Origin: Candidatus Raymondbacteria bacterium RIFOXYA2_FULL_49_16
Lineage (GTDB): Bacteria; Fibrobacterota; OXYB2-FULL-49-7; XYB2-FULL-49-35
Reading direction: 5' to 3'
Length of the DNA stretch: 64,000 bases
NCBI GenBank assembly: GCA_001789205.1
Contig: MFYT01000015.1
Span: 1 to 64,000 of the forward strand
In this document: one piece after another, positions 4,108 through 64,000 of the stretch
Position numbering within the stretch: the stretch's first letter is position 1
Layout: every line of letters begins with the position of its first letter
Notes under the pieces: generated by a model
What the model was told of the DNA's origin: nothing
Database searches by the model: none
What the model saw: the letters and a program-made list of their open reading frames with translations, nothing else
Program-made: the position numbers and the translations under genes

Positions 4108-5189
4108 AAATAATGATTAGGTTATGCATATTTGTCTTAACGGCAACGGTGTTTGTCTTTTCGGAGACGCATATCTTCTGGTACAAAGCCCTCAATAATC
4201 ACTATGCTCTGACCGATAGCCCAGGCCCGGCATTGGCAGCAAATTCTATCATACATGAAGGGAAAATTGCCACATGCAACAATTCAGTAGGCCTAGGATA
4301 TACAGGAAGCGGTTTTTCATGCGGATCAAATGTAAATGATGATCAGGGCTGGTGCTCTCTGTTTTATTCAGAGGATATCAATGATTCCTTAATGACAGGA
4401 ATCGTAGATTCGGCCTTTATCCGTGGAGAATATTATAACCCGAGTCATGAAGGGCCTCCGATATGCAATGGCGGAATCATCAATATAAAATGTGGGGTTG
4501 TGGACGTAGCCCCTGGCTTGGAAATGTGGGAAGATTTTCCTGGGGGTTTTCCAGATGATGCGGTATGTACAGATTTGCTTCTTTTGAAACCACTGGATTA
4601 TTCTCTAGATTTAATCGAAGGCACTGTGGATACGATCGTTTATATGACATTATCTGGAAATCCAACTCAACCAAATCAACTTGACAGCAATTTTATCCGG
4701 ATAGACATTACAAAACAAATAGATTGGATTGTGCAACATCATGATGGAAGGTACGCTATTGTATTTCTATCGCCTATAGGGCAGGGAAGTACGGGAAAAT
4801 TTACAGTGTTTGCAGAAGAAATCTGTTCTTTAAATACGCGTGGTTATTATCCACCCAGATGTCCTTGGACCAAAGACGGCAACACGACCCACCTCCTGGT
4901 CTACGGCGATCTGAACGACAGCATTTCCACAGAGAAGGCTCTGCAGATCAAGACCGGCCTTAAAGTGACCATAGCGCCTAATCCGTTCAATCCCTCCACA
5001 AGAATAGCTATAGGCCAGGAAGCGGATATTGATATCTATGATGTTAACGGTAAGCTGGTGGATCGGCTGGCAGCGCAAGGTTCACAACCTTTGGAATGGA
5101 ATGCTTCAAAGTTGCCGGGGGGCGTTTACTTTTGCAGGGTGAAGGCAGGTGGAAGAACGGTAATGGGGAAGATAGTGTATCTACGATAA
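4104..5189 (+). CDS. Secreted protein with T9SS-type C-terminal sorting domain
   Basis: A 361-residue protein. Residues 1-20 form a signal peptide (IMIRLCIFVLTATVFVFS). The body is Cys/Trp/Asp-rich with no recognised catalytic domain. The last 75 residues carry the Por-secretion (type A) or FlgD-like sorting signature: IAPNPFNPSTRIAIG, DIYDVNGKLVDRL, LPGGVYFCRVKAGG and a basic end KIVYLR. Known proteins with this tail cross the outer membrane through the type IX system and are cleaved and anchored or released. The start overlaps the preceding stop (ATGA). The 3' portion from about 4850, which encodes the tail, is more G+C-rich than the A+T-rich 5' part, so the gene looks like a chimera of an acquired N-terminal module and a resident sorting tail. 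Confidence 0.75.
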   Translation: MKIMIRLCIFVLTATVFVFSETHIFWYKALNNHYALTDSPGPALAANSIIHEGKIATCNNSVGLGYTGSGFSCGSNVNDDQGWCSLFYSEDINDSLMTGIVDSAFIRGEYYNPSHEGPPICNGGIINIKCGVVDVAPGLEMWEDFPGGFPDDAVCTDLLLLKPLDYSLDLIEGTVDTIVYMTLSGNPTQPNQLDSNFIRIDITKQIDWIVQHHDGRYAIVFLSPIGQGSTGKFTVFAEEICSLNTRGYYPPRCPWTKDGNTTHLLVYGDLNDSISTEKALQIKTGLKVTIAPNPFNPSTRIAIGQEADIDIYDVNGKLVDRLAAQGSQPLEWNASKLPGGVYFCRVKAGGRTVMGKIVYLR

Positions 5190-55714: not shown

Positions 55715-57653
55715 GTTTCAATCCACGCGCCCCGTGCGGGGCGCGACGTACGGAAAAGGCCGTGCAGACTGCGCGGGGCTTCGGTTTCAATCCACGCGCC
55801 CCGTGCGGGGCGCGACATTGTCAGTGTCGGACTTCCCCCTCCCCTGTTGTTGTTTCAATCCACGCGCCCCGTGCGGGGCGCGACATCCAATAGCCGTCCA
55901 CTTCTTAACAAATTCCGGGTTTCAATCCACGCGCCCCGTGCGGGGCGCGACCCCCATCCAGTTTCGATTGAACCAGATAGAGGAACAGTTTCAATCCACG
56001 CGCCCCGTGCGGGGCGCGACCGGTATTGTCTGTCGTACCACTGGCCGCCGCTGAGTTTCAATCCACGCGCCCCGTGCGGGGCGCGACTCCGTATGCGGCA
56101 ACGACATTCCCTGGCTATGGTGGTTTCAATCCACGCGCCCCGTGCGGGGCGCGACATACTCTGTCATATCACGTTCCAGCGCTCCCATGCGTTTCAATCC
56201 ACGCGCCCCGTGCGGGGCGCGACTAAAATCACTAATAAATTTTTCCGCAAGGATGTAGTTTCAATCCACGCGCCCCGTGCGGGGCGCGACGAGCGGGAGC
56301 AGGATCTGGAGCGGGAGCAAATAAAGGTTTCAATCCACGCGCCCCGTGCGGGGCGCGACCAGAATTGTGTAACTCTCAACCATACCGAGCTGTTTCAATC
56401 CACGCGCCCCGTGCGGGGCGCGACTTCCTGATTTGTAGTTACCATTACACGTATCTCGCAGGTTTCAATCCACGCGCCCCGTGCGGGGCGCGACCGGATC
56501 GTTGGGTAAATCTATTGATGAGTCAATATCTGTTTCAATCCACGCGCCCCGTGCGGGGCGCGACTGCAGCGTTGTATAATGTCATCAAACATCTATCGCC
56601 AGTTTCAATCCACGCGCCCCGTGCGGGGCGCGACTTAAGCGGGTCGCTGTATTCATGCGGTTGCGGTGTTTCAATCCACGCGCCCCGTGCGGGGCGCGAC
56701 TGCAATAACATCGCCGGATATGCCTATTTTTGGGTTTCAATCCACGCGCCCCGTGCGGGGCGCGACTACCGGCACAGGGGAAAGCAGTTGTAACATCACG
56801 GGTTTCAATCCACGCGCCCCGTGCGGGGCGCGACCATGAACCAGTGCTGCTGCCCAATAGCGCGGATGGTTTCAATCCACGCGCCCCGTGCGGGGCGCGA
56901 CTGGCGGTCTTAACTGGTTTATATCCATCGGTAGCTTGTTTCAATCCACGCGCCCCGTGCGGGGCGCGACGTTATAATTTATGATTCTGTTTCAACGGAA
57001 AATAGAGTTTCAATCCACGCGCCCCGTGCGGGGCGCGACCTGATGCCTGATCTGTCCATGCCGATACACGGTTGGTTTCAATCCACGCGCCCCGTGCGGG
57101 GCGCGACATCCGATAAGGCAATACACCCGCATGCTCTGACGAGTGTTTCAATCCACGCGCCCCGTGCGGGGCGCGACCCAAGATGATCCGCTGATAGCCT
57201 GGCCGTTGATAACGTTTCAATCCACGCGCCCCGTGCGGGGCGCGACAGCACAATAGTACCAGTTGTTTATACCACAAAAACTGTTTCAATCCACGCGCCC
57301 CGTGCGGGGCGCGACCTTTTTTTATTGAGTACACATAAACCTCCTATTTCAGTTTCAATCCACGCGCCCCGTGCGGGGCGCGACCAAACATTAAAGACAT
57401 TGGCTTTGGTATCAATTGGTTTCAATCCACGCGCCCCGTGCGGGGCGCGACGCCTCTGAGGCCGGACACGTCGCCACTGAGGCCGGTTTCAATCCACGCG
57501 CCCCGTGCGGGGCGCGACTTGACGCACTATCATGCGCTTTTCCGGCACCATGCTGTTTCAATCCACGCGCCCCGTGCGGGGCGCGACACGCGTATCCCTT
57601 CGGCTTTGAGCATAGGAATTGTTTCAATCCACGCGCCCCGTGCGGGGCGCGAC
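55715..57653 (-). CRISPR. Type I-C CRISPR array, 29 repeats, 28 spacers
   Basis: Twenty-nine copies of one 33-bp repeat at 55715-57653, all identical by eye, including both ends. On the plus strand the repeat starts GTTTCAATCCACGC and ends CGGGGCGCGAC; an internal GCGCCCCG/CGGGGCGC palindrome forms an 8-bp stem with a 3-nt loop. Spacers are 32-37 bp. On the minus strand the repeat ends GTGGATTGAAAC, the crRNA-handle side expected for type I-C, and the cas genes are read the same way from the right, so the array is transcribed leftwards and the newest spacer is the one nearest 57653. No spacer matched other sequence of this window by eye. Confidence 0.98.
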
Positions 57654-57831: not shown

Positions 57832-58122
57832 CTAAACAATTAGCGGCCCCTCCTGGTCTATAACTTCCTTTGCGCCTTCGTGTTCAATACGATGGTTGTA
57901 ATTATTACCGAGAAAATAAAATCTCAAGCTGTCTTCCTTGGGATTTATTTCATGTAATAATTGCGCTTTTATCGCTGCCCACTGGGCTGAATCGACAACA
58001 CATTCAAACACAGAGAACTGAACGCGCTGGCCGTAATTTTCGCATACTTTCGCCACCCGCCGGAGTCGTTTCCTCCCTTTGGCCGTATCCGTCTTTACAT
58101 CGTAACTGACAAGCACCATCAT
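57832..58122 (-). CDS. cas2: CRISPR-associated endoribonuclease/integrase subunit Cas2
   Basis: A 96-residue Cas2 of the type I-C family: MVLVSYDVKTDTAKGRKRLR (beta1 with the conserved Asp), CENYGQRVQFSVFECVVDSA, and FYFLGNNYNHRIEHEGAKEV. With Cas1 it forms the spacer-integrating complex. It starts 2 bp after cas1. Its stop borders the leader. Confidence 0.95.
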   Translation of the reverse strand: MMVLVSYDVKTDTAKGRKRLRRVAKVCENYGQRVQFSVFECVVDSAQWAAIKAQLLHEINPKEDSLRFYFLGNNYNHRIEHEGAKEVIDQEGPLIV

Positions 58123-58124
58123 GG

Positions 58125-59156
58125 CTATTTCCAGAAAAAGGGTGGATATCCGTCCATATCGCCCCGAATGTGCCGCGCGAGAAGAAGGGCCTGCACAAAA
58201 GGAAGCAATCCTATCTCGACCTTCTCCTCTATGTATGGATGCATAATTTCCTCTTTTTTCCGTTCCTGGTACGCTACTATCACCTTCTTCCGTGTCTCAT
58301 CGCTCATCATCACGCCGCCGGATTCTGTTGTTTTAAAACCCTTGCCGGTTATTTGCTGTAAGTTTATGAGAGACAGCGCAAGCCGGTCGGCAAGCAGCGG
58401 CCGAAGCTCCTCCATGATGTCCAGTGCAAGGCTGGGCCTGCCAGGCCTGTCCTTATGGAGGAAACCGACAGCTGGATCCAGCCCTACGGATTCCAACGCT
58501 GATACAACATCGTGGACGAGAAGAGTGTACAGAAATGATAGCAGGGCGTTCACGTTGTCTTTTGGCGGCCTGCGTGACCGCTCATGAAAGAAGAAGGAAT
58601 CTTTCTGCGCGATTATGAGACTGTCAAAGACTCCGAAATAGGCGTTTGCCGCGTCTCCTTCAAGCCCGCGGATGCTTTCAAGGTTGTCCTGGCGTTCAAG
58701 AGCTTCAATGTGGTGCTTAAGGTACTCCGCGACCTTGCCCACGGTCTCCATGCCGGGTTTGCCTTGGTGGTCGCGAATCGCGCGAAGCAAAACCGTACGT
58801 GCATTGGAGAGTTTTCCAATAACGCATGCCCTTGCCATAACTACGCATGATTTTTCATCGTCTGCCCTACGATATTGTTCTCTGCGGAGCAGTACATTGC
58901 CGGAAACCGGACCTTCGACCCGCGCCAGGAAATGGCCATTCTCAGAGAGGAAACAAAGCCCCACATTCCGTTCCCCGCAGAAACCCATGAGGAATGGACT
59001 GCATGAAACATTACCGAAACAGACTATGGCGCCGACCGTGTGGATGGGCACACGCAATCGCACTTCGCGGTCCACATTGACACAGACTGTCTCGCCCTCC
59101 TTGTTCAGGTACGCGCCCTGGGTGGTGACGTAGAGTGTGTTGAGGAGTTTTCTCAT
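58125..59156 (-). CDS. cas1: CRISPR-associated integrase Cas1 (type I-C)
   Basis: A 343-residue Cas1 starting at ATG 59156 (MRKLLNTLYVTTQGAYLNKE), the I-C-type N-terminus; the open frame upstream lies inside the transposase gene. Visible motifs: beta-strand domain VNVDREVRLRVPIHTVGAIV, the metal-binding Glu in IRGLEGDAANAYFGVFDSLI, His in VGFLHKDRPGRPSLALDIME. Catalytic residues thus appear intact. The start codon overlaps the stop of the preceding transposase gene (ATGA). Confidence 0.95.
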   Translation of the reverse strand: MRKLLNTLYVTTQGAYLNKEGETVCVNVDREVRLRVPIHTVGAIVCFGNVSCSPFLMGFCGERNVGLCFLSENGHFLARVEGPVSGNVLLRREQYRRADDEKSCVVMARACVIGKLSNARTVLLRAIRDHQGKPGMETVGKVAEYLKHHIEALERQDNLESIRGLEGDAANAYFGVFDSLIIAQKDSFFFHERSRRPPKDNVNALLSFLYTLLVHDVVSALESVGLDPAVGFLHKDRPGRPSLALDIMEELRPLLADRLALSLINLQQITGKGFKTTESGGVMMSDETRKKVIVAYQERKKEEIMHPYIEEKVEIGLLPFVQALLLARHIRGDMDGYPPFFWK

Positions 59157-59791
59157 TCTGGTATTTCCAAGGTCTTGTGGATGACCTTTTCCATTAATTC
59201 CAAAGGATTTGTTCTGATATAGTTCCTGATGAAAAACAGGGAAATGTCGTTGCGGACAATGTGTTCGTAGAAATTGCGCTGCCATGAGAAATCATGGTGG
59301 CCGTTTTTCCTGCACCACAGGGTCACGGCGGATTTGTATGCGCGGATGATTGATCCCACGGATTTGGGTATAATATGTTGGTATTCGTGTTTGGTTTGGG
59401 GTCCGGGACGATGCCCATTTCCGGGCGTTTGTAGGGGTTCAAAATTTTGAACCCCTACGGGTGAATGGATATGTTTGGTATTTTCATCATTGGGCGTGCC
59501 GGCATTGAATTTATTGCCATCGTGCAAAACCAGGATGCCATGTATATGGTTCGGCATAACCACAAATTCATCCAGGGATGCATTGGGGTAATGGTTGGGT
59601 ATTTCCATCCAATATTGATGCACAATTTTGCCGATCGTGGTCAATTTCATTTGCCCGTTCGGTGCGCATGCAAGGACGCATGGCGTGTTTTGCGTACAGA
59701 TGGTGATATAATAGGTTCCCGGACGCGAATAGTCGTATCCCTTGAGCCGAATTGACCGTCTGTGATGGAGTTCGGAGTTTGATTTTTCCAT
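59153..59791 (-). CDS. HUH (Y1) transposase, RAYT-type, between cas4 and cas1
   Basis: A 212-residue protein of the Y1_Tnp/REP-associated tyrosine transposase type. It opens with HHRRSIRLKGYDYSRPGTYY ITICTQ; the HUH metal site is VVMPNHIHGILVL; the catalytic Tyr is probably in FFIRNYIRTNP. Between them SVGSIIRAYKSAVTLWCRKN and the FSWQRNFYEHIVRND segment are typical. Single-copy RAYTs mobilise or maintain REP palindromes. Here the gene lies 2 bp after cas4 and its stop overlaps the cas1 start, so it is read and probably translated as part of the adaptation operon. It is intact in sequence. Residues about 112-121 (GVQNFEPLQT) are encoded by a perfect 28-bp palindrome. Confidence 0.9.
   Translation of the reverse strand: MEKSNSELHHRRSIRLKGYDYSRPGTYYITICTQNTPCVLACAPNGQMKLTTIGKIVHQYWMEIPNHYPNASLDEFVVMPNHIHGILVLHDGNKFNAGTPNDENTKHIHSPVGVQNFEPLQTPGNGHRPGPQTKHEYQHIIPKSVGSIIRAYKSAVTLWCRKNGHHDFSWQRNFYEHIVRNDISLFFIRNYIRTNPLELMEKVIHKTLEIPE
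59431..59458. repeat. 28-bp perfect palindrome inside the RAYT gene (REP-like)
   Basis: From GTAGGGGTTCAAAA at 59431 the sequence continues as its exact reverse complement to 59458. It has no loop, a G-rich outer part and an A/T centre. It encodes the VQNFEPL part of the transposase, so the repeat has been accommodated within the reading frame. RAYT proteins are known to act on such palindromes. Confidence 0.85.
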
Positions 59792-59793
59792 GT

Positions 59794-60444
59794 TTATTTC
59801 GATATTTCTTTCACGTATTCGATGGCCGATTTATTCCCTCCGGCCGTGTCGGGCAGGCAATATTCCACAAGGGAACATTTCTCACATTTTAGGGTCTTAA
59901 CCGCGGTGGGCGTGGTTCCTTTTTTCATCAGGGCATGAAGTTGCCTTGCCGCCGACTCGGTTTCCTGCCTTAAAGCTTCAGAAAACACCACTTCAAGCCT
60001 GCGGTGGGTTTTGCCGTAGTAGATCGCCCCTTGGGGAATGGTGATGTTCAGCATTTCTTCAAGGCAAAGGGCTTGTGCGCAAAGCTGGACAAGGTCGCAA
60101 TCGTCTATTTTCGGTTTTCCGCGTTTGTACTCGATCGGATAGGGCTGTTGTGCGCCATTGGCCTGTTTGTGGAATTCGACGGCATCAGCCTTGCCGATAA
60201 GTCCCAATTTGCAACTGCGTATTGAAAGGCCACGGGCGATTGTGATGCCTGGGCGTGTTTCATCCCCGGCATCATGCACTTTTTCGTGGAGCAGATGGCC
60301 CTCGACAGTAAGGCGGTTCTCTGCCCAGATTCTTTCAATGTGGATAAGGGCGCATTGACGCTCGCAGAACTGAATGTGCTGGAGCGCGGAAATTGGAAGT
60401 AGTTCAGATTCCTGGAATAAGTTTCTTTGCTTGATAGTATTCAT
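59794..60444 (-). CDS. cas4: CRISPR-associated exonuclease Cas4
   Basis: A 216-residue Cas4: first cluster Cys in IQFCERQCALIH, nuclease motifs GKADAVEFH and PIEYKRGKPKIDDCDL, C-terminal Cys cluster CEKCSLVEYCLP. It sizes and orients prespacers with Cas1-Cas2 in type I-C systems. The start codon is overlapped by the divergent hicBA promoter at 60431-60459, and a 475-bp gap holding hicBA separates it from cas7. The transposase gene follows at 2 bp. Confidence 0.95.
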   Translation of the reverse strand: MNTIKQRNLFQESELLPISALQHIQFCERQCALIHIERIWAENRLTVEGHLLHEKVHDAGDETRPGITIARGLSIRSCKLGLIGKADAVEFHKQANGAQQPYPIEYKRGKPKIDDCDLVQLCAQALCLEEMLNITIPQGAIYYGKTHRRLEVVFSEALRQETESAARQLHALMKKGTTPTAVKTLKCEKCSLVEYCLPDTAGGNKSAIEYVKEISK

Positions 60445-60459
60445 GGATAATTGTAATAT
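60431..60459 (+). promoter_or_regulatory. Promoter of hicBA overlapping cas4 start
   Basis: TTGATA (60431-60436) and TAATAT (60454-60459) are separated by exactly 17 bp on the plus strand. hicB starts at 60489 behind GGAG. The -35 lies inside cas4 codons and the -10 just upstream of the cas4 ATG (60444), so HicB binding here could also affect passage of the cas transcript. Confidence 0.6.
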
Positions 60460-60488
60460 TATTAAAGACCCTTAGCTGGAGAAAACTT

Positions 60489-60716
60489 ATGAAGACATAT
60501 AATCTGAATACGATTATCGAAAAAGATGAATTTGGGTATTATGCTTATTGCCCTGAGCTTGATGGATGTTGCACCCAAGGCAAGACTCTTGATGAGACCA
60601 TGAAAAACATCAGGGAGGCTATGTCCCTTTATCTTGAGACCCTGTCCCCCAGGGAGAGAAGCGCTCTTGTCCATCGTGAGATCATGACCTCTAATCTTGA
60701 GGTTTCGGTTGCCTAA
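60489..60716 (+). CDS. hicB: HicB-type antitoxin
   Basis: A 75-residue partially degraded-RNase-H-fold antitoxin: LNTIIEKDEFGYYAYCPELD, GCCTQGKTLDETMKNIREAM, followed by a short C-terminus (LVHREIMTSNLEVSVA). It precedes hicA, the reverse of the common hicA-hicB order but a known variant. It has no separate DNA-binding tail, although the C-terminus may still contact DNA. It lies on the opposite strand to the cas genes. Confidence 0.92.
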   Translation: MKTYNLNTIIEKDEFGYYAYCPELDGCCTQGKTLDETMKNIREAMSLYLETLSPRERSALVHREIMTSNLEVSVA

Positions 60717-60909
60717 GTCTCCACGCATTACCGCCTCTGAGGCAGAGAAGCTCCTGTTAAAAAGCGGTTTTGAGCTTCTGCGAAGCAGAGGCAGCCATCG
60801 AATATATTTTAAGAACAACATCCGCATGGTTGTTCCGTTCCATGCGGGTGCCGTGCTTCATCCTAAAATTGTCAAACAACTCGAACGCGCCATAGAAATC
60901 GCCGGGTAA
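60697..60909 (+). CDS. hicA: HicA-type mRNA interferase toxin
   Basis: A 70-residue dsRBD-like toxin. The start is TTG, either 60697 or 60709 (the latter gives LPKSPRITASEAEKLLLKSG, closer to family length). Active-site His in LLRSRGSHRIYFKNN, and the IRMVVPFHAG segment, are conserved. Translation is coupled by overlap with hicB. It ends 10 bp from the cas7 stop on the other strand, so convergent transcription with the cas operon is expected. Confidence 0.92.
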   Translation: MRFRLPKSPRITASEAEKLLLKSGFELLRSRGSHRIYFKNNIRMVVPFHAGAVLHPKIVKQLERAIEIAG

Positions 60910-60918
60910 GGGCGCGTT

Positions 60919-61785
60919 TTACAGCATTTCCAACAATTCCACGCCCTGTGGAACCTTGGCCTTTTCCAGGGTCACCTTGTAGTCGGTGAATTCGCGGGCG
61001 GGTTTGGCTGGGTCCGTGGCACGCTCTACTTTTACAAGGTCGAATAGGTTTTGCGCAGGGGCATTTCCGAATTCAGACCCATGTTTGAAAACTATCAGTT
61101 TTCTGGTCCCCATAAGACCACGCGCGGCAGAACGATCATGATCGAACATGGTCTTAAGTGCATCCCACAGAAGTTTGAGATCCTCTTCAGAAAAACCGGT
61201 CTGTTTTGCAAGAGGAGCCGATATAAAACCATGGGAAAGGTAGAGACCATATGGGATAGTGAATTTACGGCCCATTGTTCTATTATCGCCAGACTGTTTT
61301 TCTGATTCTGCCACCGTTGCAACGGCCATGCGTGTGATTGAATGTTCCGAAGTAACAACACGCTCAATAGACCGACCGAATGTTAACTGCACCGGCCCAC
61401 GAACCTGACCAGCATTCTTTCCAGTGCTCATAACGGCACCAAAAGTTCTAATATCAAAAAAGTTCTCGCACATCCATTTACGTGCCTCTTCTGTTTTCTC
61501 GCTCCCTTTTTCTTTAATTTTTACCTTTTCCTGCTCATGTGCTTGATCGATAAGATTGTTTAGAATGGCCTTTTCCTTAATAAAAATATCGAATGGTTTT
61601 TTTCCCTCTTTTATCATCTGTACAAAGTTTCTGACTTTTCGTTTAAGACAAACATCTGTCACAAGCCCCATGCCAGTTTCAGCGTCCACCCTGGGCATAT
61701 TACCTGCATCGGGGTCACCATTGGGGTTGCCGTCCTTAACATCGAACAGCAGCACGAAATCGTAACGATTAGCAACGGAACTCAT
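60919..61785 (-). CDS. cas7: Cas7 (Csd2), type I-C backbone subunit
   Basis: A 288-residue RAMP-fold protein: [20 protein letters not shown] (the family hallmark), [52 protein letters not shown]. Several copies coat the crRNA in the I-C Cascade. It overlaps cas8c by 1 bp. Its stop at 60919 is followed by the convergent hicBA. Confidence 0.96.
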
Positions 61786-63602
61786 TATTCTTCTCCTTCT
61801 TTTGAGGTTTTTTGGTAAAATTTCTGGGTTTGGTGATAGTAGCCAATTGAGAAACGACCTTGGTCGTCCAATGTGAGATGAGCCGGAAAGTCGGTGATAC
61901 CGTCCATAATTTCGGTGATCATTTTTTCAAAGTTAACGGCGCGTCCTTTGTTTTCAAGTTTTGCCACATGATGGTTTTTCATTCTCATGAGGATAGAAAA
62001 AACCGTTACAGGCGTTCCTGATGCTGCGCCGTAATACCGATCTCGGATTGTAGCGTTCAGCCCGGGGTGCGATTCTGCTTGGATTTTTTCCAGCACGGCA
62101 AATAGGCGGCCAAGCCTATAACCGGAATTTTTATTCGATTCATCGAGTGCCATTTTGAGCTCCTCCTTTATGGTTGGGTTTGAATATCGGATCTTTCGAT
62201 TTATACAAGCCTTGATAATAGTAAACCGAAGTTGATCGATCCATAATCTGGAACCATGCTGTTTATCACCATGTGGTGGGATGCTTCCTTCGGCTTTTAT
62301 TCTTCGTAATGCATGACCAAATAGTGTATCTGGATACGGAAGGTTTTTCAGGATTGCATTCAGTGTGTCACCACTCAAATTTGGTGCAATATCTTCATAG
62401 TTTCCGTATGGATGTTTTCCACTCGTCCTGGTTATAGCTTTTAATAGACCTTGTAAAGAAGGGTACTCGTTATGTCTTTGTGAACCTTCCAAGGTAAAGT
62501 CATCAAAATGCTGTTTGATATTATCCGCCAGTTCCCGAACAGTCAAAACTTGCCAAAAACGGACAGATATACGGGCTGCGTTCGGAGTAAGACCAAGAAT
62601 GTAGAACAAGTTTTTATCTCGATCGTTTGTGCTGAATGAGCCCGTTTTCACGGACTGGTAGAGATTATGAACAGCTTCCGTATTGCGATTTGTGTCGTCT
62701 TTCTGGGGTTCACCGAAGATGTCGAGAAGTTGATTTTCAAGATCATCAGGTTTTTTTGACCAGAACAAGATTGTGTCTTCGCCGATTGGTAACCTTTGCC
62801 TTGATCCGAGCAAATGGTTTAACGCCATCCCATATGCACCAGCTGCAGGAATGGATATCGGCGCATTATAGCTCTGTTCCTTCCCGTATGAATCGTAGCC
62901 ACAGTTTTTTTGGAAAGAGACTATTTTTGCATTACTTTTGCTCTTTTTTGATGGTAAGGGTGAAGTAGGTTGGAGACGTGCTATTTTTGAATGATTTCCG
63001 GTGAGAATACAATGGGAGAAATACTCTGTGGTAGGGCTTTTATCATCATTTAATGTTTCTGTCATCACTGATGCTTGAACATACTCAAACAATAATGGGT
63101 TTTCACCAACCGTTTTGCTATTCCCTGCCACGCGAAAGCTTATATTGCAACCGGGGATTCTGATTGCCTCTTGCCAGTTGGGGTGACTAATAATCTGTGG
63201 AAAACTTTCACTATTGATAAAAGTTAATACGGCTGAGAATTCTATCTCTTTTGGAAACGCAGTTACAACTTTCTCTGTTTCTGAAACGAACGATTTGTGT
63301 TGATTGTTTGCACGTTCTTTTGCTTCCGAGGTGTCTTCTTTGGGATGCCCAAGTACATAACCAATGTGATCCCACATAATATTAGCAGTCTGCCAGGCAT
63401 TTTTACCAGATCGTTCTTTACCCATAGGTATTTTGAATTGTTTTGCTCGGGGTCGAATACCTTGATTTTCTCTGGTATCCTCAAGGTTGATGAACTTACC
63501 GGATCCATCTATCACAATAATGAAAGGAATTTCTTGGTTATCAAAACCAATGGGGGGCAATTCTTTTCTTTGATAATATTCCATTAGAGCATTGAGTATC
63601 AT
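61785..63602 (-). CDS. cas8c: Cas8c (Csd1), type I-C large subunit
   Basis: A 605-residue protein of the Csd1 family: [60 protein letters not shown], all typical. It binds PAM and recruits Cas3; in I-C systems an internal start also yields Cas11c. It overlaps cas5 by 4 bp and cas7 by 1 bp. Its base composition is more A+T-rich than the hydrogenase operon, consistent with acquisition of the locus. Confidence 0.95.
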
Positions 63603-64000
63603 CCTCGTACCTCCTCACTTTTCCAATCCGGCACCAGAATGATGCCCTGTTTCATGACAGGCCTGTAAATCCGTGGGCTGCATTTATCCGTGCAGCTATG
63701 GACATGACTTTCATCTTTGGAATTATCATGCCGGATATCATAGACCATCCAACCCAAATCCCTGTCTTCTGAAATAGCTTTTGGTTGGCTCTGATCTGGT
63801 TGAACAAGTTTAAAATCAACTGCAAACTCACGGGTTCCAAAATAGGGCCTATGGAAACATTGACCATTTTCTGCACGCCGTTCGAACATGGCAGCGAATT
63901 TGGCCTCTGTATCTTCAGAACCCTTTTTATCGGTCATTTCAAAGTGTGCATGCAGACGGTAGGCCACATCCTTGAGAATTAGGGCCGCCCGCTGCTGTCG
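63599..64000 (-). CDS. cas5: Cas5c (Cas5d) crRNA endonuclease, partial
   Basis: The open frame runs off the right edge; the visible 133 residues are the C-terminal part, beginning QQRAALILKDVAYRLHAHFE. VAYRLHAHFEM, FHRPYFGTREFAVDFKLVQ and LGWMVYDIRH are typical of the I-C Cas5. In this subtype Cas5 processes pre-crRNA, replacing Cas6, which is absent. The internal ATG at 63967 is not the real start. cas3 is expected further upstream, outside the window. Confidence 0.93.
   Translation of the reverse strand, partial: RQQRAALILKDVAYRLHAHFEMTDKKGSEDTEAKFAAMFERRAENGQCFHRPYFGTREFAVDFKLVQPDQSQPKAISEDRDLGWMVYDIRHDNSKDESHVHSCTDKCSPRIYRPVMKQGIILVPDWKSEEVRG

Follow-up and report, generated by a model that had tools for sequence, protein, structure and literature searches.

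An intact gene for a RAYT lies between cas4 and cas1 of a type I-C cas operon in the window, the whole stretch of 64,000 nucleotides of DNA analysed here. About one in five of the sampled RAYTs of the same subclass (2.4) have type I RM or CRISPR genes as neighbours, and in every case the RAYT is on the strand of the operon. The window RAYT is probably a resident or hitchhiker that recurs in defence operons and is co-expressed with them; its CRISPR neighbours would be incidental, and it would form no Cas1-Cas2-Cas4 subunit. The enrichment in defence operons is broad and chiefly concerns type I RM, and it therefore replaces the idea of a CRISPR-specific association. RAYTs are low-copy genes under purifying selection with a patchy distribution, and their placement in defence operons is a concrete genomic clue to what they are for: either these operons are a vehicle for the spread of RAYTs, or RAYTs take part in immunity.

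The RAYT gene and its host operon

The host operon contained the type I-C gene set cas3-cas5-cas8c-cas7-cas4-cas1-cas2 together with a CRISPR array (Table 1). Cas1c was recognized by TIGR03640 with 525 bits, and Cas2, Cas4, Cas7/Csd2 and Cas8c/Csd1 were also identified with NCBIfam models. The RAYT ORF starts with ATG and is separated by 2 bp from the cas4 stop codon, which begins at 59794, while its TGA stop overlaps the ATG of cas1 (59156) by 4 bp in the sequence ATGA. The initial annotation had described an intact Y1/HUH ORF with this spacing and direction between cas4 and cas1, and its coordinates were confirmed. As the RAYT is read in the same direction as both neighbours and shares ATGA with cas1, it is probably co-transcribed and translationally coupled with the cas genes.

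Table 1. Features of the cas locus in the window
Feature	Positions	Strand
CRISPR array with 29 repeats of 33 nt, all identical, and 28 different spacers (32-37 nt)	55715-57653	.
cas2	57832-58122	-
cas1, type I-C, TIGR03640	58125-59156	-
ATGA overlap of RAYT stop (TGA) and cas1 start (ATG)	59153-59156	-
TnpA_REP/RAYT, subclass 2.4-like, predicted HUH/Y1 endonuclease of 212 aa with intact catalytic residues	59153-59791	-
Perfect 28-bp REP palindrome in RAYT ORF	59431-59458	.
cas4; C-terminus almost full-length relative to operons without insertion	59794-60444	-
hicB-like antitoxin (60489-60716) with HicA toxin (60697-60909), an antisense passenger of the cas7-cas4 gap	60489-60909	+
cas7 (Csd2)	60919-61785	-
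cas8c (Csd1)	61785-63602	-
cas5, running past the window edge, then cas3	63599-64000	-

The gene was clearly a TnpA_REP/RAYT of subclass 2.4, which corresponds to group 4 of Bertels (Table 1, Quentin et al. 2018, PMC6006769), despite a weak NF047646 (REP_Tyr_transpos) score of 43 bits, below the curated cut-off of 80; Pfam Y1_Tnp gave no match to the ORF. In an alignment with 17 relatives all invariant residues were kept (H82, H84, W170, Q171, Y191, N195 and P196). The motifs of the subclass are NH[IFV]H, WQ and YIxNNP, the latter of the class 2 type Y---NP (PMC6006769, Table 1). In the window RAYT they were represented by N81-H82-I83-H84, by W170-Q171, which was invariant in the alignment, and by YIRTNP at 191-196, which preserves Y---NP with T for N relative to the subclass consensus. 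A profile of the alignment found E. coli TnpA_REP (4er8) as the sole solved chain with E < 1e-3. In the AlphaFold model the core was predicted well and residues ∼97-139 formed a disordered linker, and Foldseek placed 4er8 on top, followed by ISDra2 and IS608. The invariant residues, the profile match and the fold match upheld the RAYT family to which the gene had initially been assigned. Judged by its sequence, the protein is a catalytically intact, predicted single-strand HUH endonuclease with a GTAG-footed REP hairpin as its putative cognate target, and it would act on such hairpins in single-stranded DNA.

The palindrome GTAGGGGTTCAAAATTTTGAACCCCTAC, bounded by GTAG and CTAC, was located in frame within the ORF, in the disordered linker between the motifs. 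Genes of subclass 2.4 are described as having double-foot or long GT[AG]G REPs, often inserted within the gene (PMC6006769), and the window RAYT also resembled the subclass in its low copy number and in having diverged paralogues within one genome. A second genomic copy of the REP with one mismatch lay in the reading frame of a 742-aa ORF elsewhere, and the REP has thus apparently moved. This copy (L097 ∼4770-4797, G000:C43:6772-6799) encodes the peptide VQNFEPLQ as in the RAYT and is a coding insertion. Flanking REPs, found for the large majority of subclass 2.4 genes and not strictly defining (PMC6006769), were absent within ∼1 kb of the RAYT, and the window held the internal copy alone when the core was searched with up to 3 mismatches.

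Other, diverged Y1 transposases in the genome were 31-52 percent identical to the window RAYT over the matched parts, and there was no near-identical second copy in the genome, so that a recent IS-like jump was rejected. A plasmid search with the protein returned a single record with 33 percent identity. The modelled HUH/Y1 fold is shared with the IS200/IS605 elements IS608 and ISDra2; unlike these, the window RAYT has no adjacent tnpB and no near-identical genomic copies, and it carries Y191---N195-P196 instead of the class 1 Y---Q. The abutting cas genes leave no space outside the ORF for IS subterminal hairpins. E. coli TnpA_REP (PDB 4er8) is the nearest solved structure by profile and fold. 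It belongs to subclass 2.2, however, the fold alignment gave an identity of 19 percent, and the window RAYT differs from it in having an internal linker with a REP.

The GC3 of the RAYT gene (0.535) resembled that of cas4 (0.548), with 0.596 for cas1 and 0.37-0.44 for the effector genes, and composition cannot date the insertion. The adaptation genes cas4 and cas1 differed in composition from the effector genes. Within 57832-64000, uneven identity to G018 suggests module exchange: compared with G018, the window Cas7 and Cas5 showed 80 and 76 percent identity, and Cas1, Cas4 and Cas8c only 43-62 percent. The hicBA pair was a second passenger of the operon; like the REP palindrome, it had been missed by the initial annotation.

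RAYTs in other type I-C operons and the cas4-cas1 junction

The phylum of the window was represented by 167 genomes, 11 of which had an I-C-like cas1. A RAYT was present in three of these 11 loci (the window, G044 and G004), compared with 0 of 130 I-C-level cas1 loci in three other phylum-level groups, where flanks of ∼1.5-2.5 kb were examined (p 4e-4). The G004 operon had the order cas4-RAYT-cas1 with the same ATGA overlap as the window. The order in G044 was cas7-REP-RAYT-cas4-REP-cas1, with 0 bp between RAYT and cas4, and the RAYT thus occupied the cas7-cas4 junction. Flanking REP copies were present in G044; its REP, GTAGGGGCACGCCATGGCGTGCCCCTAC, occurred in three copies at the cas locus, one of them inside the RAYT, and none lay outside the cas locus among the matches listed for G044. 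The G004 RAYT was frameshifted at an A run, and its linker was swollen by tandem repeats. This linker (L142 2060-2440) held a long in-frame tandem repeat of ACCAACGTG units and a REP. The G004 RAYT may be subject to phase variation or slippage.

In the RAYT tree the window and G044 sequences were placed together (99/93) and that of G004 in another clade. A single clade for the three cas-resident RAYTs was rejected (AU p = 6.6e-5), and the three cas1 genes fell into three separate, unrelated places of the cas1 tree. The three RAYTs represent at least two insertions, most likely three. Neither a conserved presence with cas1 nor a single origin congruent with cas1, as expected of a core I-C adaptation gene, was observed, and no I-C cas genes were found near the 80 best sequence homologues of the window RAYT.

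The initial annotation had considered that the arrangement might be unique to this genome, which the three loci rule out, and that recruitment would be supported by a shared gene order and one clade of transposases. The latter expectation failed on the rejected clade, the three cas1 positions, the differing junction, the one frameshift and the absence from the 130 loci elsewhere. It had also been argued that perfect operon packing speaks against a random insertion, which does not hold as stated. The native cas4-cas1 junctions of most relatives are already ATGA overlaps and cas1 begins with ATGA, so that a run-on ORF would end exactly at the cas1 start in about one case in three. RAYTs were often packed alike in unrelated operons: 25 of 113 were closely flanked by co-directional genes on either side, in several cases at -4/-4, 3 or 12 bp, and the neighbours of tightly packed RAYTs were as diverse as an ABC transporter, lepA, rmuC and rpe. 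What stood of the initial interpretation was the gene, its family, its packing and its occurrence beyond one genome; CRISPR-specific recruitment and the argument from packing were given up.

The I-C cas4-cas1 junction is a permissive insertion site, as the gap held unrelated small genes in ∼10 of 150 operons (∼7 percent). Named by eye, the gap genes were RelE-like, GIY-YIG, four-helix bundle, Fic, DUF4160-like and AAA ATPase genes; such loci were L277, L193, L285, L230, L195, L175 and L271.

Enrichment of subclass 2.4 RAYTs in defence operons

Two samples were compiled, amounting to 183 RAYT loci with one locus counted twice (L014 = L320) and close relatives included (L020/L024 and L023/L055). 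The first comprised 113 RAYTs, namely those of the window, G044 and G004 and others picked by similarity to the window protein regardless of neighbourhood, and the second 70 Bacteroidota RAYTs picked by family profile. These broad samples covered three phylum-level groups and the phylum of the window, and many flanks were cut by the ends of MAG contigs. Type I RM (hsd) genes lay within 1.2 kb of 18 of the 113 and 15 of the 70 RAYTs (33/183 in total). Four of the 113 lay in cas operons, the chance rate expected for cas operons being an assumed value; among them was one Bacteroidales locus with the order Cas9-RAYT-Cas1, in which 2 bp separated the RAYT from the type II cas1 that follows it. None of 40 control loci, mostly ∼40 kb away on the same contigs, was near a defence gene of the query panel, which consisted of hsd genes, two Cas1 types, Cas4 and one Cas9 and was partly drawn from RAYT neighbourhoods themselves (Fisher p 9e-4).

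Because of this origin of the panel, a Pfam scan of neighbours served as an unbiased check. Among 120 immediate RAYT neighbours it identified HSDR_N (10), Methylase_S (6), N6_Mtase (4) and HsdM_N (3), none of which was among the families listed for 109 control proteins. PADLOC, whose library holds no matching RAYT model, agreed with this pattern. For the tightest-packed RAYTs the Pfam scan showed hsdM-RAYT-hsdS in Nitrosomonas, hsdS-RAYT-hsdR in Thermus and hsdS-RAYT-hsdM in Chloroflexi. The RM pattern emerged only with these scans; a survey of the best homologues had first hinted at no association.

All 46 adjacent defence genes were on the strand of the RAYT, compared with 152 of 250 other neighbours, an approximate count owing to crude gene calling (p 2e-9). 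In the window operon the antisense insertion of hicBA was tolerated, which implies that the operon by itself does not dictate the strand bias of the RAYTs.

The 22 defence-resident rows of the RAYT tree required 18 changes (shuffled mean 20.3), and defence residence was therefore gained many times; for RM residence, 12 changes were needed for 15 rows. Across 17 RM-resident loci the divergence of RAYT and HsdR was correlated (Mantel r 0.42, p 4e-4). A RAYT directly before hsdR was common to Thermus (L091), Bacteroidota (L322 and L350) and a cyanobacterium (L081), with HsdR 62-83 and RAYT 60-70 percent identical among these loci. One hsdS-RAYT-hsdR lineage has thus co-diverged across phyla, and a resident RAYT can persist for long. 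The dN/dS was ∼0.2-0.35 in RM-resident RAYT pairs, with comparable values for pairs without known RM residence.

In the open PMC text we found no published account that places a RAYT within a cas or hsd operon. The description of subclass 2.4 (PMC6006769) reports no link of its genomic context to defence operons, and the window RAYT departs from that description in its location within a cas operon and its ATGA overlap. The habit was counted in subclass 2.4 alone and may not be special to it.

Possible reasons for residence in defence operons

The RAYT would have entered the I-C operon of the window at the cas4/cas1 junction, separately from the entries in G044 and G004. RAYTs of the subclass repeatedly lodge in defence operons, mostly among hsdM, hsdS and hsdR and occasionally in CRISPR operons. 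Hitchhiking is the likeliest reason, in which harmless copies in often-transferred, self-maintaining defence operons would spread and persist, and the survivors would be those insertions that keep the frame and direction of the operon. RAYTs have no insertion-sequence ends and spread poorly by themselves, which may be why they favour defence operons as a vehicle. Hitchhiking is preferred over an immune function because most I-C operons carry no RAYT and one cas copy is broken. However, the strict strand bias, the purifying selection and the co-divergence with HsdR exceed the strict needs of a neutral hitchhiker. The strand bias and the co-divergence keep alive a generic auxiliary role in which the cutting and joining of single-stranded DNA would aid type I RM and CRISPR and be retained for that, which we regard as possible but doubtful. 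It might consist in processing the single-stranded DNA of invaders, in reshuffling hsdS or cas neighbours via REPs, or in sensing single-stranded DNA at replication forks. Such a role would fit an enrichment that spans two unrelated types of defence system and the repeated origin of RM residence, as well as the invariant catalytic residues and a dN/dS below 0.4. Most I-C operons do without a RAYT (all 130 loci examined outside the phylum), one cas copy is frameshifted, the majority of RAYTs lie outside the defence operons counted, and we know of no biochemical link between RAYTs and defence systems. It can be proposed only tentatively that bacterial defence operons have subclass 2.4 RAYTs as an auxiliary enzyme in common, stably incorporated in some type I restriction operons (hsdS-RAYT-hsdR in several phyla) and repeatedly recruited to I-C and type II CRISPR operons, whose cutting and joining of single strands would contribute to immunity or to the diversification of immunity.

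A dedicated component of spacer acquisition, making or trimming prespacers or maintaining the array with Cas4-Cas1-Cas2, as suggested in the initial annotation, is highly improbable. Although the ATGA-coupled order cas4-RAYT-cas1 recurs in two families of the phylum, a RAYT directly precedes a type II cas1, and the GC3 of the RAYT is near that of cas4 and cas1, the cas-resident RAYTs do not form one clade, the 130 I-C loci examined elsewhere lack the gene and the G044 RAYT precedes cas4 instead. Moreover, most RAYT-bearing defence operons are RM systems, which acquire no spacers. As a nucleic-acid-processing enzyme encoded beside cas1, the window RAYT resembles the reverse transcriptases that are encoded next to cas1 or fused to it; for an RT-Cas1 fusion a function in acquisition has been demonstrated (PMC5513706). 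Unlike these, the window RAYT is unfused and sporadic, and its relatives lie mainly in RM operons. An ordinary chance insertion without affinity for defence operons, in which the packing is a by-product of run-on frames, would account for the tight packing of RAYTs against many kinds of co-directional genes, for the ATGA of native junctions and for the other passengers of the cas4-cas1 gap. We consider it rather improbable, since defence neighbours were far above the control and all on one strand, and since RAYTs were found in 3 of 11 I-C loci of the phylum and in none of the 130 elsewhere.

Further RAYTs were seen near these loci. A second, diverged copy lay ∼10 kb beyond the window RAYT (L094 9078-9767, G000:C15:69078-69767). 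Two truncated RAYT fragments that contain palindromic inserts came after it (L094 11282-12205), making up a local RAYT graveyard just upstream of cas3. The second RAYT of G044 (L118 1-3649, G044:C153) came immediately after an ORF that contains an NPP methylase-like motif and looks Eco57I/IIG-like by eye, and a HigBA-like toxin-antitoxin pair lay downstream of this RAYT; this setting is likely a defence island.
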